DNA of 64,000 bases, taken from NCBI GenBank assembly GCA_020851375.1, contig JADZCV010000044.1, positions 1-64,000 of the forward strand. Reading direction: 5' to 3'. The translations under genes were made by a program, and so were the position numbers. The number at the start of each line of letters is the position of its first letter. Position 1 is the stretch's first letter. Shown in pieces: positions 14,993-20,273 of the stretch. The notes under the pieces were generated by a model, which saw nothing but the letters and a program-made list of their open reading frames with translations, had not been told where the DNA came from and did not search any database. The DNA comes from Nitrospirota bacterium. Lineage in GTDB: Bacteria; Nitrospirota; 9FT-COMBO-42-15; HDB-SIOI813.

Positions 14993-15007
14993 TCACCCTC
15001 TCCTGCG
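14981..15007. terminator. Bidirectional terminator hairpin between convergent operons
   Basis: CGCAGGAGA (14981-14989) and TCTCCTGCG (14999-15007) are exact 9-base arms around a 9-base loop. On the + strand the hairpin is followed by a T-rich stretch (TCTTTTCCTTT). It overlaps the ends of the second DUF507 gene and of the small membrane protein gene. Confidence 0.5.
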
Positions 15008-15226
15008 GGATATCTTTTCCTTTATCTCATGCAGTTTTGCATATTGTTTTGGAAATACGGTCCTGAGCTTGGACAAATTCCGCCTTACAAATGAGCTTGA
15101 CCTTGAGATTAACGCGATCCCGATTATAAACGGCACAAAACCAGGGAAAAATGGAAGCAGGAACCCTGCCAGTCCTATAACTATCAATACAGAACCGGCT
15201 GCAAAATAGACAGAGCGTTTAACCAT
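14993..15226 (-). CDS. Small membrane protein, PGPGW/DUF454-like
   Basis: 77 residues with two predicted membrane segments (about 7-26 and 29-44) joined by a short PFFPGFVPF turn, then a basic cytoplasmic tail. This pattern resembles the small PGPGW or DUF454 membrane proteins. It is the last gene of the sulfur-carrier operon, four bases after the JAMM protease gene. Its role there is unknown and it may be a passenger. Confidence 0.6.
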   Translation of the reverse strand: MVKRSVYFAAGSVLIVIGLAGFLLPFFPGFVPFIIGIALISRSSSFVRRNLSKLRTVFPKQYAKLHEIKEKISRRRG

Positions 15227-15229
15227 ATA

Positions 15230-15628
15230 CTACTGAAGGTCTGTAGCCGCTGTTGTAATTTCCCCGCCCGTTATATTGAAACTCCCGGTCTTTGTCTCCA
15301 TCCTGTCATTGACAGAGATGATTATGTAGACCGCCTCCGGATAATAGGCAAGCTCCACATCTGTCCGTGAAGGAAAGGCAGGGTGATTGGGGTGCGAATG
15401 GTATATTGCCTTGAGTTCCGTTCCAAGTGACCTCATCTCTTTAAAGACCCTCATCTGCTCAGCCGGATCCATAAGGTATCTTGTCCTTGACTGGTCAATA
15501 TTGGACATAGGATATATGTGCGATACCACGCCGTTTTTTCCACCAAGTATCCCGCAGCACTCGAGGGGAAAATCATTCTTTGCGTGTTCAATCATTGATT
15601 CCGCAATTTCAGGTGGAATTCTCAGCAT
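15230..15628 (-). CDS. mec: JAMM/MPN+ metalloprotease (Mec+ / QbsD type)
   Basis: 132 residues with a complete JAMM motif: E23 (LECCGILGG), H77 and H79 (HSHP), S87 and D90, in the canonical HxHx7SxxD spacing. Small bacterial JAMM proteins cut after the Gly-Gly of sulfur-carrier proteins: Mec+ of Mycobacterium releases cysteine from the CysO-Cys adduct, and QbsD trims the C-terminal residues of QbsE. In this operon both types of substrate are possible, since one carrier ends in GG and the other in GG-Phe-Ala. It lies 19 bases after the second moeB-like gene. Confidence 0.88.
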   Translation of the reverse strand: MLRIPPEIAESMIEHAKNDFPLECCGILGGKNGVVSHIYPMSNIDQSRTRYLMDPAEQMRVFKEMRSLGTELKAIYHSHPNHPAFPSRTDVELAYYPEAVYIIISVNDRMETKTGSFNITGGEITTAATDLQ

Positions 15629-15647
15629 GGATAACTGGGGACAACGG

Positions 15648-16454
15648 CTATATCTTAAGTGTACAGCTCTGCTCGTAGTCCATCAACCCGGTAATCTTTT
15701 TCTCTTTGCCACACAGAAAACAGTTTGGATCTTTTTGAGTCCTGACCTTCAGGAACTTCATACCAAGCGCATCATATATCAACAGGTGGGACGCAAGCGA
15801 GCTGCCTATTCCAAGCACCTCCTTGACAGCCTCTGTAGCCTGTATCACGCCGACTGTCCCGGCCAGGACGCCAAGGACGCCGGCCTCCTGACAACTTGGC
15901 ACAAGGCCCGGCGGAGGAGGCTCAGGATAAAGGCACCTGTAGCAGGGATGTCCGTCATGAGGCTTTAACGTGGTAACCTGTCCTTCAAACCTGAAGATAC
16001 TGCCGGAAATGAGCGGTTTTCCGCTGAAGAAACATGCATCATTTACAAGAAACCTTGTGGGGAAGTTATCTGACCCGTCAAGGACAAGGTCATAATCCTT
16101 TATTATATCCATTATATTCGCAGAAGAGAGCCTTTCCCTGTAAGGAACCACCTTAACATCAGGGTTCAATGCCCCAAGGGTTTCCCTTGCAGACTCAACC
16201 TTTGGTTTATTAAGCGTCTTCATGGAATGGAGTATCTGTCTCTGTAGATTGGACATATCAACGACATCGTCATCAATAATACCGATAGTGCCAACCCCTG
16301 CAGCGGCAAGATAGAGGGCAACAGGAGAGCCAAGCCCGCCTGCGCCGGTAATAAAGACCCTGGCTTCACAGAGCTTCTCCTGCCCCTTTCCACCAACTTC
16401 TGAAAGGATTATATGCCTGCTATATCTCTTAACCTGCTCCTCAGTAAAATCCAT
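15648..16454 (-). CDS. moeB: MoeB/ThiF/HesA-family E1 activating enzyme (second copy)
   Basis: 268 residues. The ATP site GAGGLGSP near residue 37, SNLQRQ, and DGSDNFPTRFLVND are standard for E1 adenylating enzymes. Two CxxC pairs (CYRC and CFLC) form the structural zinc site, and the conserved Cys is in PSCQEAGV. There is no rhodanese domain. It should adenylate the C-terminal Gly of a MoaD/ThiS-type carrier so that sulfur can be added as a thiocarboxylate. The nearest carrier is the GG-ending protein two genes upstream. It is a paralogue of the E1 at 18238-19038. Confidence 0.9.
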   Translation of the reverse strand: MDFTEEQVKRYSRHIILSEVGGKGQEKLCEARVFITGAGGLGSPVALYLAAAGVGTIGIIDDDVVDMSNLQRQILHSMKTLNKPKVESARETLGALNPDVKVVPYRERLSSANIMDIIKDYDLVLDGSDNFPTRFLVNDACFFSGKPLISGSIFRFEGQVTTLKPHDGHPCYRCLYPEPPPPGLVPSCQEAGVLGVLAGTVGVIQATEAVKEVLGIGSSLASHLLIYDALGMKFLKVRTQKDPNCFLCGKEKKITGLMDYEQSCTLKI

Positions 16455-16461
16455 ACAATTC

Positions 16462-16701
16462 CTATTCTATAATATTTCTTTCTATAGGTTCTACTTTAAC
16501 TCCCTTAGCTCGCAGGGATTCAACGGCCTTCTCTATCTCGCCCGATTCACCCTCCAGTTCAAGCTCAACCCATCCGGTCTTCTCTCTGACATCCGCCCTT
16601 CTTACATTGGTAACAACTTTAAACTCCCGGCCTAACTGGTATATGAGAGGCTCCTTGATCTTGTCTTCAGGGAAATTAATCCTGATTCTGTAATATGACA
16701 T
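16462..16701 (-). CDS. NIL-domain protein
   Basis: 79 residues forming a single ferredoxin-like (ACT-like) NIL domain: YRIRINFPEDKIKEPLIYQL and VELELEGESGEIEKAVESL. NIL domains occur at the C-terminus of the methionine transporter ATPase MetN, where they bind methionine, and with ferredoxin modules in proteins tied to homocysteine synthesis in methanogens. Here it stands alone, without ferredoxin Cys motifs, between the GG carrier and an E1 gene. A role as amino-acid sensor or accessory subunit of this sulfur pathway is inference. Confidence 0.82.
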   Translation of the reverse strand: MSYYRIRINFPEDKIKEPLIYQLGREFKVVTNVRRADVREKTGWVELELEGESGEIEKAVESLRAKGVKVEPIERNIIE

Positions 16702-16705
16702 CAGT

Positions 16706-16981
16706 CTATCCTCCGGCTATTGCAGGGACAATAGAAACCTCGTCGCCATCCGAGAGAGCCGTATCACTGCCCTGTTTAAACCTTATATCTTCCTCATTAA
16801 CGTAAATGTTTACAAAGCGCCTCAGGTTTCCTGCCTCATCACAAAGCCGTTCTTTAATTCCGGGATATCTTACTTCGAGGTCTCCAAGCATCTCTCCTAT
16901 TGTCTTTCCTGATGCATCAATCTCGCCCTGTCCGTCAGTCAATCTGCGTAATGGTGTGGGAATTCGTACCTTAATTGCCAT
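16706..16981 (-). CDS. cysO: MoaD/ThiS-like sulfur carrier ending in Gly-Gly (CysO type)
   Basis: 91-residue beta-grasp protein with the MoaD/CysO pattern ([15 protein letters not shown], then [13 protein letters not shown]). It ends exactly in Gly-Gly, so it needs no trimming before adenylation. In the known CysO pathway the carrier thiocarboxylate gives its sulfur to a PLP enzyme. Here thrC lies immediately upstream and the NIL and E1 genes downstream. MoaD for molybdopterin is the alternative, but no other moa gene is present. The symbol indicates type, not proven substrate. Confidence 0.82.
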
Positions 16982-16991
16982 GTATCACCTC

Positions 16992-18263
16992 TTATGATTT
17001 TTCCCTGATGTTCAAAGACTTTTCAAATGCATCCATAGAAGGGTCTATCCTTACGACATCGCCGACAGCGTTTATCACAGCCTCCTGTGTCTTTAAACCA
17101 TTCCCCGTAACATAGGCCACTACACTCTCATCCGCCGGTATAAGCCCCTTCATGACCAGCTTCTTCAGAACAGCTATAGTGACCCCTCCTGCTGTCTCGG
17201 CAAAGATCCCTTCAGTCCTGGCAAGGAGCTTAATCCCTTCAATGGTCTCTGTATCAGAGACGGCATCAACACTCCCCTTGCTCTCATGAACAGCCTTTAG
17301 TGCATAGTATCCATCTGCCGGGTTGCCAATCGCAATTGACTTGGCAATAGTCTTCGGTTTAACAGGCTTTATAAAGTCCCTGCCTTCTTTAAAGGCTGAG
17401 GCTACAGGGGAACATCCTTCTGCCTGTGCTCCATTCACCTTTGTATGCACACTGTCTATCAATCCAAGAGTCTTAAACTCATTAAACCCCTTCCATATTT
17501 TTGTCAACAAAGACCCGGATGCAACAGGAACAACCACATGGTCAGGCGCCTTCCACCCAAGCTGTTCGGCTGTTTCAAATGCCAGCGTCTTTGACCCCTC
17601 AGCATAATATGGTCTGATATTTATGTTGACAAATGCCCAGTTATACTCCCCTGCCACTTCACTGCACAACCTGTTTACATCATCGTAATTTCCGTTAACA
17701 GCAACAACAGTGGGAGAGTATATCAGACTGCCAAGTATCTTGCCTGCTTCAAGGTCCCCGGGTATAAACACATAACACTGAAGCTTTGCCTCAGCCGCAT
17801 GCGCTGCCACGGAATTTGCGAGATTTCCTGTTGACGCACAGGCAACTGCAGTAAAACCAAGTTCCTTAGCCCTCGTAATGGCAACTGCCACTACCCTGTC
17901 TTTAAATGACAGCGTCGGGTGATTGACCGTATCATTCTTGATATAGAGCTTATTAAGACCAAGCTCTTCTCCAAGATTCTTCGCATGGATCAGGGGTGTA
18001 AAACCGGCATACAGGCCAACAGTCGGCAGGCCTTCAACCGGAAGGAGATCGGCATATCTCCAGAGGCTCCCGGGACCGTTCTCAATGCGCTCCCGGCTTA
18101 TCTGTTTTTTGATCTCATCGTAATTATAGTCAACTTCGAGGGGACCAAAACAGAACTCACATACGTGCAGTGCAACAGCCGGATATAACTTTCCACACTC
18201 CCTGCATTTAAGTCCTTTGATTTTTTGTTTTAAAATATCAGATGCTGCAGACTTCTTGTTCAT
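16992..18263 (-). CDS. thrC: Threonine synthase-like PLP enzyme with N-terminal zinc ribbon
   Basis: 423 residues. An N-terminal zinc ribbon (C20, C23, C35, C38) precedes a fold-type II PLP domain with the Schiff-base Lys at 121 (LSFKDR) and ASTGNLANS. The family converts O-phosphohomoserine to threonine. It sits between an E1 gene and a Gly-Gly carrier, so it may be the housekeeping ThrC or a variant using O-phosphohomoserine with carrier-bound sulfur; only the former is established. The start overlaps the upstream E1 gene by 26 bases and no other in-frame ATG, GTG or TTG fits near the conserved N-terminus, so translation is probably coupled. Confidence 0.85.
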   Translation of the reverse strand: MNKKSAASDILKQKIKGLKCRECGKLYPAVALHVCEFCFGPLEVDYNYDEIKKQISRERIENGPGSLWRYADLLPVEGLPTVGLYAGFTPLIHAKNLGEELGLNKLYIKNDTVNHPTLSFKDRVVAVAITRAKELGFTAVACASTGNLANSVAAHAAEAKLQCYVFIPGDLEAGKILGSLIYSPTVVAVNGNYDDVNRLCSEVAGEYNWAFVNINIRPYYAEGSKTLAFETAEQLGWKAPDHVVVPVASGSLLTKIWKGFNEFKTLGLIDSVHTKVNGAQAEGCSPVASAFKEGRDFIKPVKPKTIAKSIAIGNPADGYYALKAVHESKGSVDAVSDTETIEGIKLLARTEGIFAETAGGVTIAVLKKLVMKGLIPADESVVAYVTGNGLKTQEAVINAVGDVVRIDPSMDAFEKSLNIREKS

Positions 18264-19038
18264 AATCTATCAATTCTTTAATCGTAGGATTTTCGCCGCA
18301 TACAGGACACTTTGGATTTTTCCTGATTTTGATCTCCCTGAACTCCATCTTGTGGGCATCAAAAGTCATCAATCTGTCTTTAAGCGGTTGCCCTATGTTT
18401 AGTATTAACTTTAGCACCTCTGTCGCCTGTATCGTACCTACTACCCCGGCAAGGACGCCGACCACACCTGCCTCCTGACATGTCGGTATAAGCCCTGCAG
18501 GCGGCGGACTGTTAAACACGCACCTGTAACAGGCCGTCTTATGCGGCACAATAGACATAACCTGTCCTACAAACCTGAGTATCCCGCCATGTACGAGGGG
18601 CTTGTCAGCAAAAACTGCTGCATCATTTGCTAAAAATTTTGCCGGGAAATTATCGGTACCGTCAAGAATAACGTCATACTCCTTGAAAAGTTCCAATGCA
18701 TTACGCGAGGTCAGAAGTTCATGATATGTTTTTACCTCTACATCCGGATTAAGCGCCTCTATTTTCTCTTTAGCAGAAATTACCTTTGGTTTATCAATGT
18801 CAGGTGTCTGATGGATTATCTGCCTCTGTAAGTTAGAGAGGTCGACGACATCGCCATCAATGATACCAAGCACTCCAATCCCGGCTGCCGCAAGGTAATA
18901 TGCCGCAGGAGATCCAAGCCCTCCGGCGCCGATTACGAGCACCCTGGATTGGCGGATCTTCTTCTGCCCCTTGCCTCCGACCTCAGGAAGGATTATATGC
19001 CTGCTGTACCTCTTAATCTGATCATCAGTAAAACTCAA
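18238..19038 (-). CDS. moeB: MoeB/ThiF/HesA-family E1 activating enzyme (first copy)
   Basis: 266 residues, clearly paralogous to the E1 at 15648-16454 (same start pattern, VKRYSRHIIL versus IKRYSRHIIL). GAGGLGSP, SNLQRQ, DGTDNFPAKFLAND, and zinc CxxC pairs (CYRC, CPVC) are all present. No rhodanese domain. It lies between cysK and thrC, and its natural partner by position is the GG-FA carrier at the head of the operon. Its stop overlaps the thrC start by 26 bases. Confidence 0.9.
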   Translation of the reverse strand: MSFTDDQIKRYSRHIILPEVGGKGQKKIRQSRVLVIGAGGLGSPAAYYLAAAGIGVLGIIDGDVVDLSNLQRQIIHQTPDIDKPKVISAKEKIEALNPDVEVKTYHELLTSRNALELFKEYDVILDGTDNFPAKFLANDAAVFADKPLVHGGILRFVGQVMSIVPHKTACYRCVFNSPPPAGLIPTCQEAGVVGVLAGVVGTIQATEVLKLILNIGQPLKDRLMTFDAHKMEFREIKIRKNPKCPVCGENPTIKELIDYEQEVCSI

Positions 19039-19093
19039 TTATAGCCTCCATGCCAGGTTGACGTTCAAAAATGCACAGTTGCAGCGTCAACCT

Positions 19094-20023
19094 CTACATT
19101 CTGAAGTATTTTTCTATGCTGATATAACGCTCTCCTGTATCGCACAGTACTGTGACTACATTCTTTCCGGCCCCCAATTTCTTTGCTACCTTCATCGCGG
19201 CAAAGACATTGGCCCCTGAGGATATACCGACCATAAGCCCTTCTTCTTTTGCAAGCAGTTTTGCTGTTTCAAATGCCTCATCATCTGTCACAGGGACTAT
19301 CTCATCAATTACATCCCTGTTCAAGACCCTCGGTATAAAACCTGCTCCGATACCCTGGATCTTGTGCGGTCCGGGAGAACCACCAGATATAACAGGAGAT
19401 GACGCAGGTTCAACCGCAATTATTCTGACACCCTTTTTGCGCTCTTTAAGAACCTCGCCTACACCTGTTATAGTGCCTCCTGTGCCAACTGCCGCAACAA
19501 AGGCGTCTACCTCTCCATTCATTACATCCCATATCTCAGGCCCTGTTGTCCTCCTGTGGGCATCAGGATTGGCAGGGTTTGAAAACTGGTCCGGCATAAA
19601 GTAGTCCGGATTTTCTTTAAGAAGCCTCTCTGCCTCTATAATGGAACCTTTCATTCCATCTATGGCAGGTGTTAACACGACCCTGGCACCAAAGGACGTG
19701 AGAAGTCCAAAGCGTTCTGTACTCATACTCTCCGGCATGACAAGTATAGCCTTGTAACCCTTGACCGCAGCAACAAGGGCCAGTCCAATACCGGTATTCC
19801 CGCTTGTAGGCTCTATAATAGTATCACCAGGGCGAAGCCTTCCTGCCTTCTCTGCCGCCTCTATCATACTCAGGCAGATACGATCCTTTATGCTGCCTCC
19901 GGGGTTAAATAACTCCATCTTTGCATAAACACTGCCGCCGCTGAGGCCAGGCATTTTATTAATCTTTACCATGGGGGTATTGCCTATAAGGTCAATGGAA
20001 TTTCTGTATATATTCTTACTCAT
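19094..20023 (-). CDS. cysK: Cysteine synthase (CysK/CysM family)
   Basis: 309 residues, PLP-dependent. The Schiff-base Lys is K46 (GGSIKDR), with TSGNTGIGLA at 73-82 and GTGGTITGVGEVLK. The family makes cysteine from O-acetylserine (or O-phosphoserine) and a sulfur donor. The ATG overlaps the stop of the carrier gene upstream (ATGA), a strong sign that this enzyme takes sulfur from that carrier, as CysM does from CysO in Mycobacterium. Whether it uses free sulfide, thiocarboxylate or both cannot be read from the motifs. Confidence 0.92.
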   Translation of the reverse strand: MSKNIYRNSIDLIGNTPMVKINKMPGLSGGSVYAKMELFNPGGSIKDRICLSMIEAAEKAGRLRPGDTIIEPTSGNTGIGLALVAAVKGYKAILVMPESMSTERFGLLTSFGARVVLTPAIDGMKGSIIEAERLLKENPDYFMPDQFSNPANPDAHRRTTGPEIWDVMNGEVDAFVAAVGTGGTITGVGEVLKERKKGVRIIAVEPASSPVISGGSPGPHKIQGIGAGFIPRVLNRDVIDEIVPVTDDEAFETAKLLAKEEGLMVGISSGANVFAAMKVAKKLGAGKNVVTVLCDTGERYISIEKYFRM

Positions 20024-20223
20024 GCAAATCCCCCTCCCATGAAATAGAGAAATTCTAACTCATCACCATCTTTTAATTGTGTAGTTCCATAGTCATCACG
20101 TTCGATCATCTTCGAATTGACTTCAACAGCTACCATCCTCGGCTCTACATTCCTCGCCTTTAAAATGTCCAGGACTGAAATCACATCTGTATTCTCTTCT
20201 TTGCCATTAATCCTGATTCGCAT
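20020..20223 (-). CDS. ThiS/MoaD-like sulfur carrier ending GG-Phe-Ala
   Basis: 67 residues from ATG 20223, which has GAGGAGGGG upstream; the longer reading to 20325 runs into the promoter and is rejected. Beta-grasp pattern MRIRINGKEENTD, DILKARNVEPRMVAVEVN, DGDELEFLYFMGGGFA. It ends in Gly-Gly-Phe-Ala, not Gly-Gly. The codons read GGA GGG GGA TTT GCA TGA. Carriers of this type (QbsE, HcyS) are known to need a JAMM protease to expose Gly-Gly, and one is encoded seven genes downstream. The first gene of the operon; its stop overlaps the cysK start. ThiS for thiamine is possible but no other thi gene is near. Confidence 0.83.
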   Translation of the reverse strand: MRIRINGKEENTDVISVLDILKARNVEPRMVAVEVNSKMIERDDYGTTQLKDGDELEFLYFMGGGFA

Positions 20224-20245
20224 AATATACTGCCCCTCCTCAAAG

Positions 20246-20273
20246 ATTATATAAAATAGCAGGAATGCGTCAA
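20246..20273 (-). promoter_or_regulatory. sigma70-type promoter of the sulfur-carrier operon
   Basis: On the minus strand, TTGACG (20273-20268) is separated by 16 bases from a perfect TATAAT (20251-20246), about 23 bases before the carrier ATG. A second TTGACA lies upstream but at unsuitable spacing. Confidence 0.6.

Follow-up and report, generated by a model that had tools for sequence, protein, structure and literature searches.

What does a bacterium make with an operon that holds two ubiquitin-like sulfur carriers, two adenylating (E1) enzymes, a JAMM metalloprotease and two pyridoxal 5'-phosphate (PLP) enzymes, one of them annotated as threonine synthase? The operon lies on the minus strand of contig JADZCV010000044.1 of a Nitrospirota bacterium (assembly GCA_020851375.1), within the 64,000 nucleotides analysed here (the window). 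A preliminary description had proposed that it provides cysteine and a second sulfur amino acid. This is still the best reading, and the second product is most likely homocysteine, since the supposed threonine synthase belongs to the MetM clade and no other homocysteine synthase was found. We consider it highly probable, from the genes and their distribution, that two protein-thiocarboxylate routes stand side by side here, one to cysteine and one to homocysteine, the precursor of methionine.

The operon

There are nine genes, transcribed from 20223 to 14993, with neighbours that overlap or are spaced by no more than 55 base pairs, in the order UblA(GGGFA)-CysK-E1a-"ThrC"-UblB(GG)-NIL-E1b-JAMM-(membrane protein):

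20020..20223, minus strand: UblA, a 67-residue ThiS-like sulfur carrier with C-terminus MGGG-FA (Pfam ThiS, 2.5e-11), overlapping cysK by 4 nucleotides
19094..20023, minus strand: CysK, PLP enzyme of the O-acetylserine sulfhydrylase type, cysteine synthase A (Pfam PALP; TIGR01139, 447.7 bits, cut-off 350.95)
18238..19038, minus strand: E1a, MoeB/ThiF-type adenylating enzyme with TTG start (PF00899, 285.8 bits)
16992..18263, minus strand: putative MetM-type homocysteine synthase, annotated as ThrC, with an N-terminal four-cysteine ribbon (Pfam PALP; clade in tree)
16706..16981, minus strand: UblB, a predicted MetO-type, CysO-like sulfur carrier of 91 residues with C-terminus AIAGG (Pfam ThiS, 3.2e-19)
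16462..16701, minus strand: stand-alone NIL-domain protein of 79 residues (PF09383, 1.6e-15)
15648..16454, minus strand: E1b, second MoeB/ThiF-type adenylating enzyme (PF00899, 274.5 bits)
15230..15628, minus strand: JAMM (Prok-JAB) metalloprotease with complete E...HxHx10D (PF14464, 1.2e-27)
14993..15226, minus strand: small PGPGW/DUF454-like membrane protein, the terminal gene (sub-threshold Pfam match)

Pfam and NCBIfam agree with the inventory given in the preliminary description, which had two carriers, two E1s, a complete JAMM, two PLP enzymes and a NIL protein in one operon. It was also right in seeing a carrier with an FA end in UblA; the start, however, is at 20223 (ATG behind GGAGG) and not at 20273, and the end reads GGG-F-A. 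The closest matches to the operon are in Nitrospirota metagenome-assembled genomes, with 94% protein identity to RBG_16_43_11. Comparison with the close relative L016 shows purifying selection on all genes, with ratios of non-synonymous to synonymous change (pN/pS) of 0.08-0.14 in the seven core genes; JAMM has 0.27 and the membrane protein 0.24. The small open reading frames are thus genes. The terminal gene is probably a passenger, as it is seen in close relatives alone.

The enzyme annotated as threonine synthase

The operon enzyme scores above the cut-off of the threonine synthase model TIGR00260 (thrC). This speaks for an alternative in which the cell has two threonine synthases, this being one of them, the carriers provide sulfur for something else, such as molybdenum cofactor or tRNA, and the genes are only loosely co-located. 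However, the genome has a second, canonical thrC elsewhere, flanked by the homoserine dehydrogenase gene (hom) and by a gene of apgM type that scores above the cut-off of TIGR02535, the model for a proposed homoserine kinase. Against the Aquifex threonine synthase 2zsj the canonical ThrC scores 499 bits and the operon enzyme 235 bits. A maximum-likelihood tree splits the clade of the operon enzyme from the canonical ThrCs with 100/100 support; the ThrC side holds the host's own canonical ThrC, five more from Nitrospirota and four threonine synthases of known structure, and the other side relatives from Nitrospirota, Aquificota, Cyanobacteriota, Omnitrophota and Nitrospinota together with one Nonomuraea enzyme, through which we take it to be the MetM clade. 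About 30 columns of the shared domain are fixed differently in the two sets, and the N-terminal four-cysteine ribbon is an extra of the operon-enzyme clade. The gene of the Nonomuraea member lies directly 3' of an S-adenosylmethionine (SAM) riboswitch (RF00162, 68.7 bits) and 5' of a carrier ending AVAGG, and a SAM riboswitch on this orthologue also argues against a role in threonine synthesis. With a separate canonical thrC in the genome and the operon enzyme in a separate clade, we no longer follow the preliminary description in calling it threonine synthase.

A 2025 paper (PMC12172450), citing Hasebe et al. 2024, describes MetM of Streptomyces albulus as an enzyme that forms homocysteine from O-phosphohomoserine; its gene lies behind a SAM riboswitch, and cyanobacteria have homologues. 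The operon enzyme is most likely a homocysteine synthase of this MetM type. The partner of MetM, MetO, is reported to be a thiocarboxylated sulfur carrier, and UblB would then correspond to MetO. The homocysteine half is therefore not new chemistry, the MetM route having been published already, though it was overlooked in the preliminary description.

MetM-type enzymes are also present in Aquificaceae with no adjoining MetO (L028 569-1795; L031 7424-8662). The homocysteine route of Aquifex aeolicus has been listed as unknown (PMC5764234), and the Aquificaceae enzyme is a candidate for this unexplained synthesis in the Aquifex group.

Homocysteine synthesis in the genome and in the phylum

The host genome (2.5 Mb, 98% complete) has MetH. 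In family searches and selected regions of it, neither an enzyme of the Cys_Met_Meta_PP family (MetB/C/Y/Z), for which there were only weak aminotransferase-like matches of 37 bits or less, nor DUF39 (HcyBio) was found, and both the Wolinella-type MetY route and the HcyBio route were rejected on these grounds. If the operon enzyme made threonine, a genome with MetH would be left without any homocysteine synthase that we could find.

The same relation was looked for in 148 Nitrospirota genomes, 126 with a MetM-type enzyme and 22 without. An alternative route is present in 20 of the 22 MetM-less genomes (Cys_Met_Meta_PP in 15 and HcyBio in 5, with neither in 2), as against 32 of the 126 with MetM, where the alternative is always Cys_Met_Meta_PP, HcyBio being found in 0/126 and neither in 94/126. 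The MetM-less genomes are spread over several families (f4, f6, f11 and f22), mostly with a substitute present. Canonical ThrC co-occurs with the MetM-type enzyme, which is strictly paired with a GG carrier and differs from ThrC at positions fixed across its clade, and a second threonine synthase is in our view unlikely.

Conservation of the gene order

The preliminary description had suggested a search for the same gene order in other genomes, and the order does recur in many Nitrospirota genomes, so it is not due to chance. Outside the cyanobacteria the MetM-MetO pair is kept in 67/70 loci, and within them in 56/57. At least 24 distinct loci have UblA-CysK upstream of MetM with MetO and NIL downstream, and families f1, f3, f9, f10, f17 and others have the complete order, JAMM included downstream. 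The division into two modules, carrier-CysK-E1 and ThrC-carrier-NIL-E1 with one JAMM, is borne out by this conserved order and by fusions of UblA to CysK, of MetO to NIL and of NIL to E1.

There are also variants. In f5, f11, f13, f15 and f16 the genes MetM-MetO-NIL are followed directly by canonical ThrC. In f7 the order is JAMM-UblA-CysK-MetM-(TusA-like)-MetO-E1-NIL, with a single E1; the TusA-like protein between MetM and MetO has a CPYTF motif (L149 7527-7868) and is a possible sulfur donor.

The cysteine half

CysK passes the model for cysteine synthase A and fails that for cysteine synthase B, and CysE is present in the genome. UblA, for its part, scores above the cut-off of the ThiS equivalog model (60.8 bits) and its closest solved structures are ThiS, as would be expected if it were the thiamine carrier and CysK merely shared its operon. 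However, no ThiG was found in the host genome, while matches were obtained in 14/14 control genomes, and with ThiG absent UblA is not a thiazole carrier. Moreover UblA and CysK form a single polypeptide in 4 genomes of 4 genera in family f2 and in 1 genome of f27, in the layout carrier, internal GGG, short linker and CysK:

L027 5586-7055: UblA-CysK fusion
L145 3552-4922: UblA-CysK fusion
L176 8271-9536: UblA-CysK fusion
L177 4290-5525: UblA-CysK fusion
L167 4544-5722: UblA-CysK fusion

No complete UblA row ends at GGG; one or more residues always follow, and this too counts against a ThiS, a role that we regard as very improbable. The identity of these residues varies (FA, VAKEAV, LI, RT, Q, S, W and others), which is expected of a tail that is always removed by a protease to expose the glycine. 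A tie between the FA tail itself and function was rejected, since it is the presence of a tail that is constant and not its residues.

UblB and the shared components

The closest solved structure to UblB is M. tuberculosis CysO (3dwg_C, 3.8e-27). Many UblB relatives also carry C-terminal extensions, so a GG end is not a trait of the UblB family, and the contrast of GG with GGFA drawn in the preliminary description is not a stable difference between the two carriers.

The JAMM metal set is complete, E...HxH(x10)D (PLECCG, HSHPNHPAFPSRTD), and this is the one Prok-JAB protein found in the genome. Across the phylum sample JAMM is present in 124/126 genomes with MetM, as against 13/22 without. Its sole NCBIfam match is to desampylase, below the cut-off (90.4 bits against 130), and UblB comes near to the SAMP1 model (59.4 bits, cut-off 60). 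These matches would fit a SAMP-like conjugation system, with JAMM detaching the carriers from proteins to which they had been coupled. However, the two sulfur-amino-acid PLP enzymes, the carrier-CysK fusion and the association with a lack of other homocysteine synthases all speak for sulfur transfer, and conjugation seems to us scarcely credible, save perhaps as a second use.

E1a has GxGGLGS and TCQEAG motifs and a zinc tetracysteine and lacks a rhodanese domain. Both E1 genes of the genome are in the operon. Carrier domains number three: besides UblA and UblB there is, at another place in the genome, a fusion of MoaD to MoaE with GG inside it (L002 1069-1764, minus strand). The fusion needs an E1, and with no E1 genes found outside the operon its E1s must serve molybdopterin too, which gives some weight to other sulfur uses for the locus. 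The operon JAMM may also cut the fusion; the only candidates found for its maturation are this JAMM and the E1s. Strictly parallel E1s, as previously envisaged, are not required: the f7 locus has both carriers and manages with one E1, and a strict E1a-UblA and E1b-UblB pairing is one possibility among others.

The NIL protein

NIL adjoins MetM-MetO in 65/70 non-cyanobacterial loci and in 3/57 cyanobacterial ones. It is fused to MetO in G106, where AIAGG is followed by NIL (L166 7273-7800), and to the N-terminus of E1b in G108 (L141 7670-8764). Carrier-CysK and carrier-NIL fusions are unusual, and presumably are cut after GG like ubiquitin precursors. The genomes that use HcyBio, 5 in number, are all in f4, and in the three loci examined a NIL protein follows HcyBio (3/3), in a lineage without MetM and JAMM:

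L159 7362-7922: NIL protein after HcyBio
L160 7131-7568: NIL protein after HcyBio
L161 7098-7511: NIL protein after HcyBio

On alignment with E. coli MetN, residue N295 of MetN corresponds to the conserved N of the NIL family motif N[IV][RK][RK]A, which is D or S in some relatives. We take N295 to matter for the transinhibition of MetNI by methionine, and methionine sensing is our best guess for NIL because of this correspondence. We place NIL in the homocysteine branch, where it most likely binds methionine and acts on the carrier and the E1 of that carrier as a regulatory or adaptor subunit. A further suggestion, to which we give a little under an even chance, is that NIL is an unrecognised third component of MetM-MetO, possibly a methionine sensor on MetO or its E1, and so a control part shared by two unrelated routes to homocysteine, MetM-MetO and HcyBio, and by the methionine importer MetN, and that the single JAMM and two E1s couple the output of cysteine and homocysteine.

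Proposed pathway

The sequences show the genes, their order and conservation, the fusions, the clade membership and the missing homocysteine synthases. From these we infer the following course, including the pairing of E1s with carriers, the cuts made by JAMM and the role of NIL. JAMM would trim the residues after GG(G) of UblA, and an E1 would adenylate the exposed glycine, sulfide, or a persulfide donor, then giving the thiocarboxylate. CysK would move this sulfur to O-acetylserine, and JAMM would free cysteine from UblA-Cys. UblB (MetO) would likewise be charged by an E1, and the MetM-type enzyme would form homocysteine from charged UblB and O-phosphohomoserine of the threonine pathway, for methylation by MetH.

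Several points weigh against the proposal of paired cysteine and homocysteine routes. Assignment to the MetM clade was made via the Nonomuraea enzyme rather than via the published MetM of S. albulus. A Microcystis MetM homologue makes threonine from O-phosphohomoserine in vitro and has deaminase activity (PMC12172450), which favours the second-threonine-synthase alternative and means that the MetM clade may not be purely one of homocysteine synthases. A SAM riboswitch was found neither upstream of the operon nor anywhere else in the window, and 21 more loci from relatives likewise gave none. For the excess of alternative routes in MetM-less genomes, the Fisher value of 6e-9 counts related genomes as independent and is inflated by kinship. 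Of the fusions, MetO-NIL is known from one genome only, and so is NIL-E1b. Finally, a second cysteine-synthase-like gene (L007 1480-2415), scoring between CysK and CysM, could supply cysteine, and the UblA branch may thus be conditional.

Relation to known systems

With regard to MetM-MetO (Hasebe et al. 2024, doi 10.1128/aem.01247-24), the likeness lies in a ThrC-homologous enzyme beside a GG carrier, the supply of O-phosphohomoserine and the finding of no other homocysteine synthase. The present operon differs in having NIL, a dedicated E1, JAMM and a complete UblA-CysK module, and in lacking the SAM riboswitch, a Streptomyces feature which the chemistry does not need. The carrier, cysteine synthase and JAMM (with E1) recall CysO-CysM-Mec of M. 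tuberculosis and operon types 4c and 4d of Iyer et al. 2006 (PMC1779556), who describe an operon type with carrier, E1, JAB and cysteine synthase and mention neither threonine synthase nor NIL. In contrast to CysO-CysM-Mec, the carrier next to CysK resembles ThiS and has a tail after GGG, the CysO-like carrier adjoins MetM, CysK is predicted to be of the O-acetylserine type, the two E1s are without rhodanese, and there is a second carrier and PLP enzyme.

In the Wolinella HcyS-HcyD-HcyF-MetY system, reportedly described by Krishnamoorthy and Begley in 2011 (doi 10.1021/ja107424t), JAMM trims a C-terminal extension of the carrier, an E1 takes part and homocysteine is the product. A tailed carrier (UblA), JAMM, E1 and homocysteine as proposed product would make ours analogous, with MetM acting on O-phosphohomoserine in place of MetY. 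The DUF39/HcyBio-NIL/ferredoxin pathway (PMC5764234) likewise has a NIL-domain partner beside a homocysteine-forming enzyme. Here, in contrast, there is no HcyBio and NIL comes without a ferredoxin domain. No thiocarboxylate carrier is known to take part in the HcyBio pathway. The QbsE/QbsD and PdtH/PdtG systems (PMC1779556) also combine JAMM and E1 with a ThiS-like carrier that is extended at its C-terminus, but these provide siderophore sulfur and not an amino acid.

A published counterpart thus exists for each half of the operon. What looks new, as we found no description of it in the searchable literature, is the joining of the two in one operon that is widespread in Nitrospirota, together with the constant NIL partner and the fusions. 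Most Nitrospirota gain a candidate pathway to homocysteine, and hence to methionine, where automated annotation reads a duplicate threonine synthase. Since a single transcription unit holds both of the proposed carrier-based routes, the specificity of E1s for carriers and the sharing of one protease are directly testable, and NIL is singled out as a new component that can be tested in the same way.

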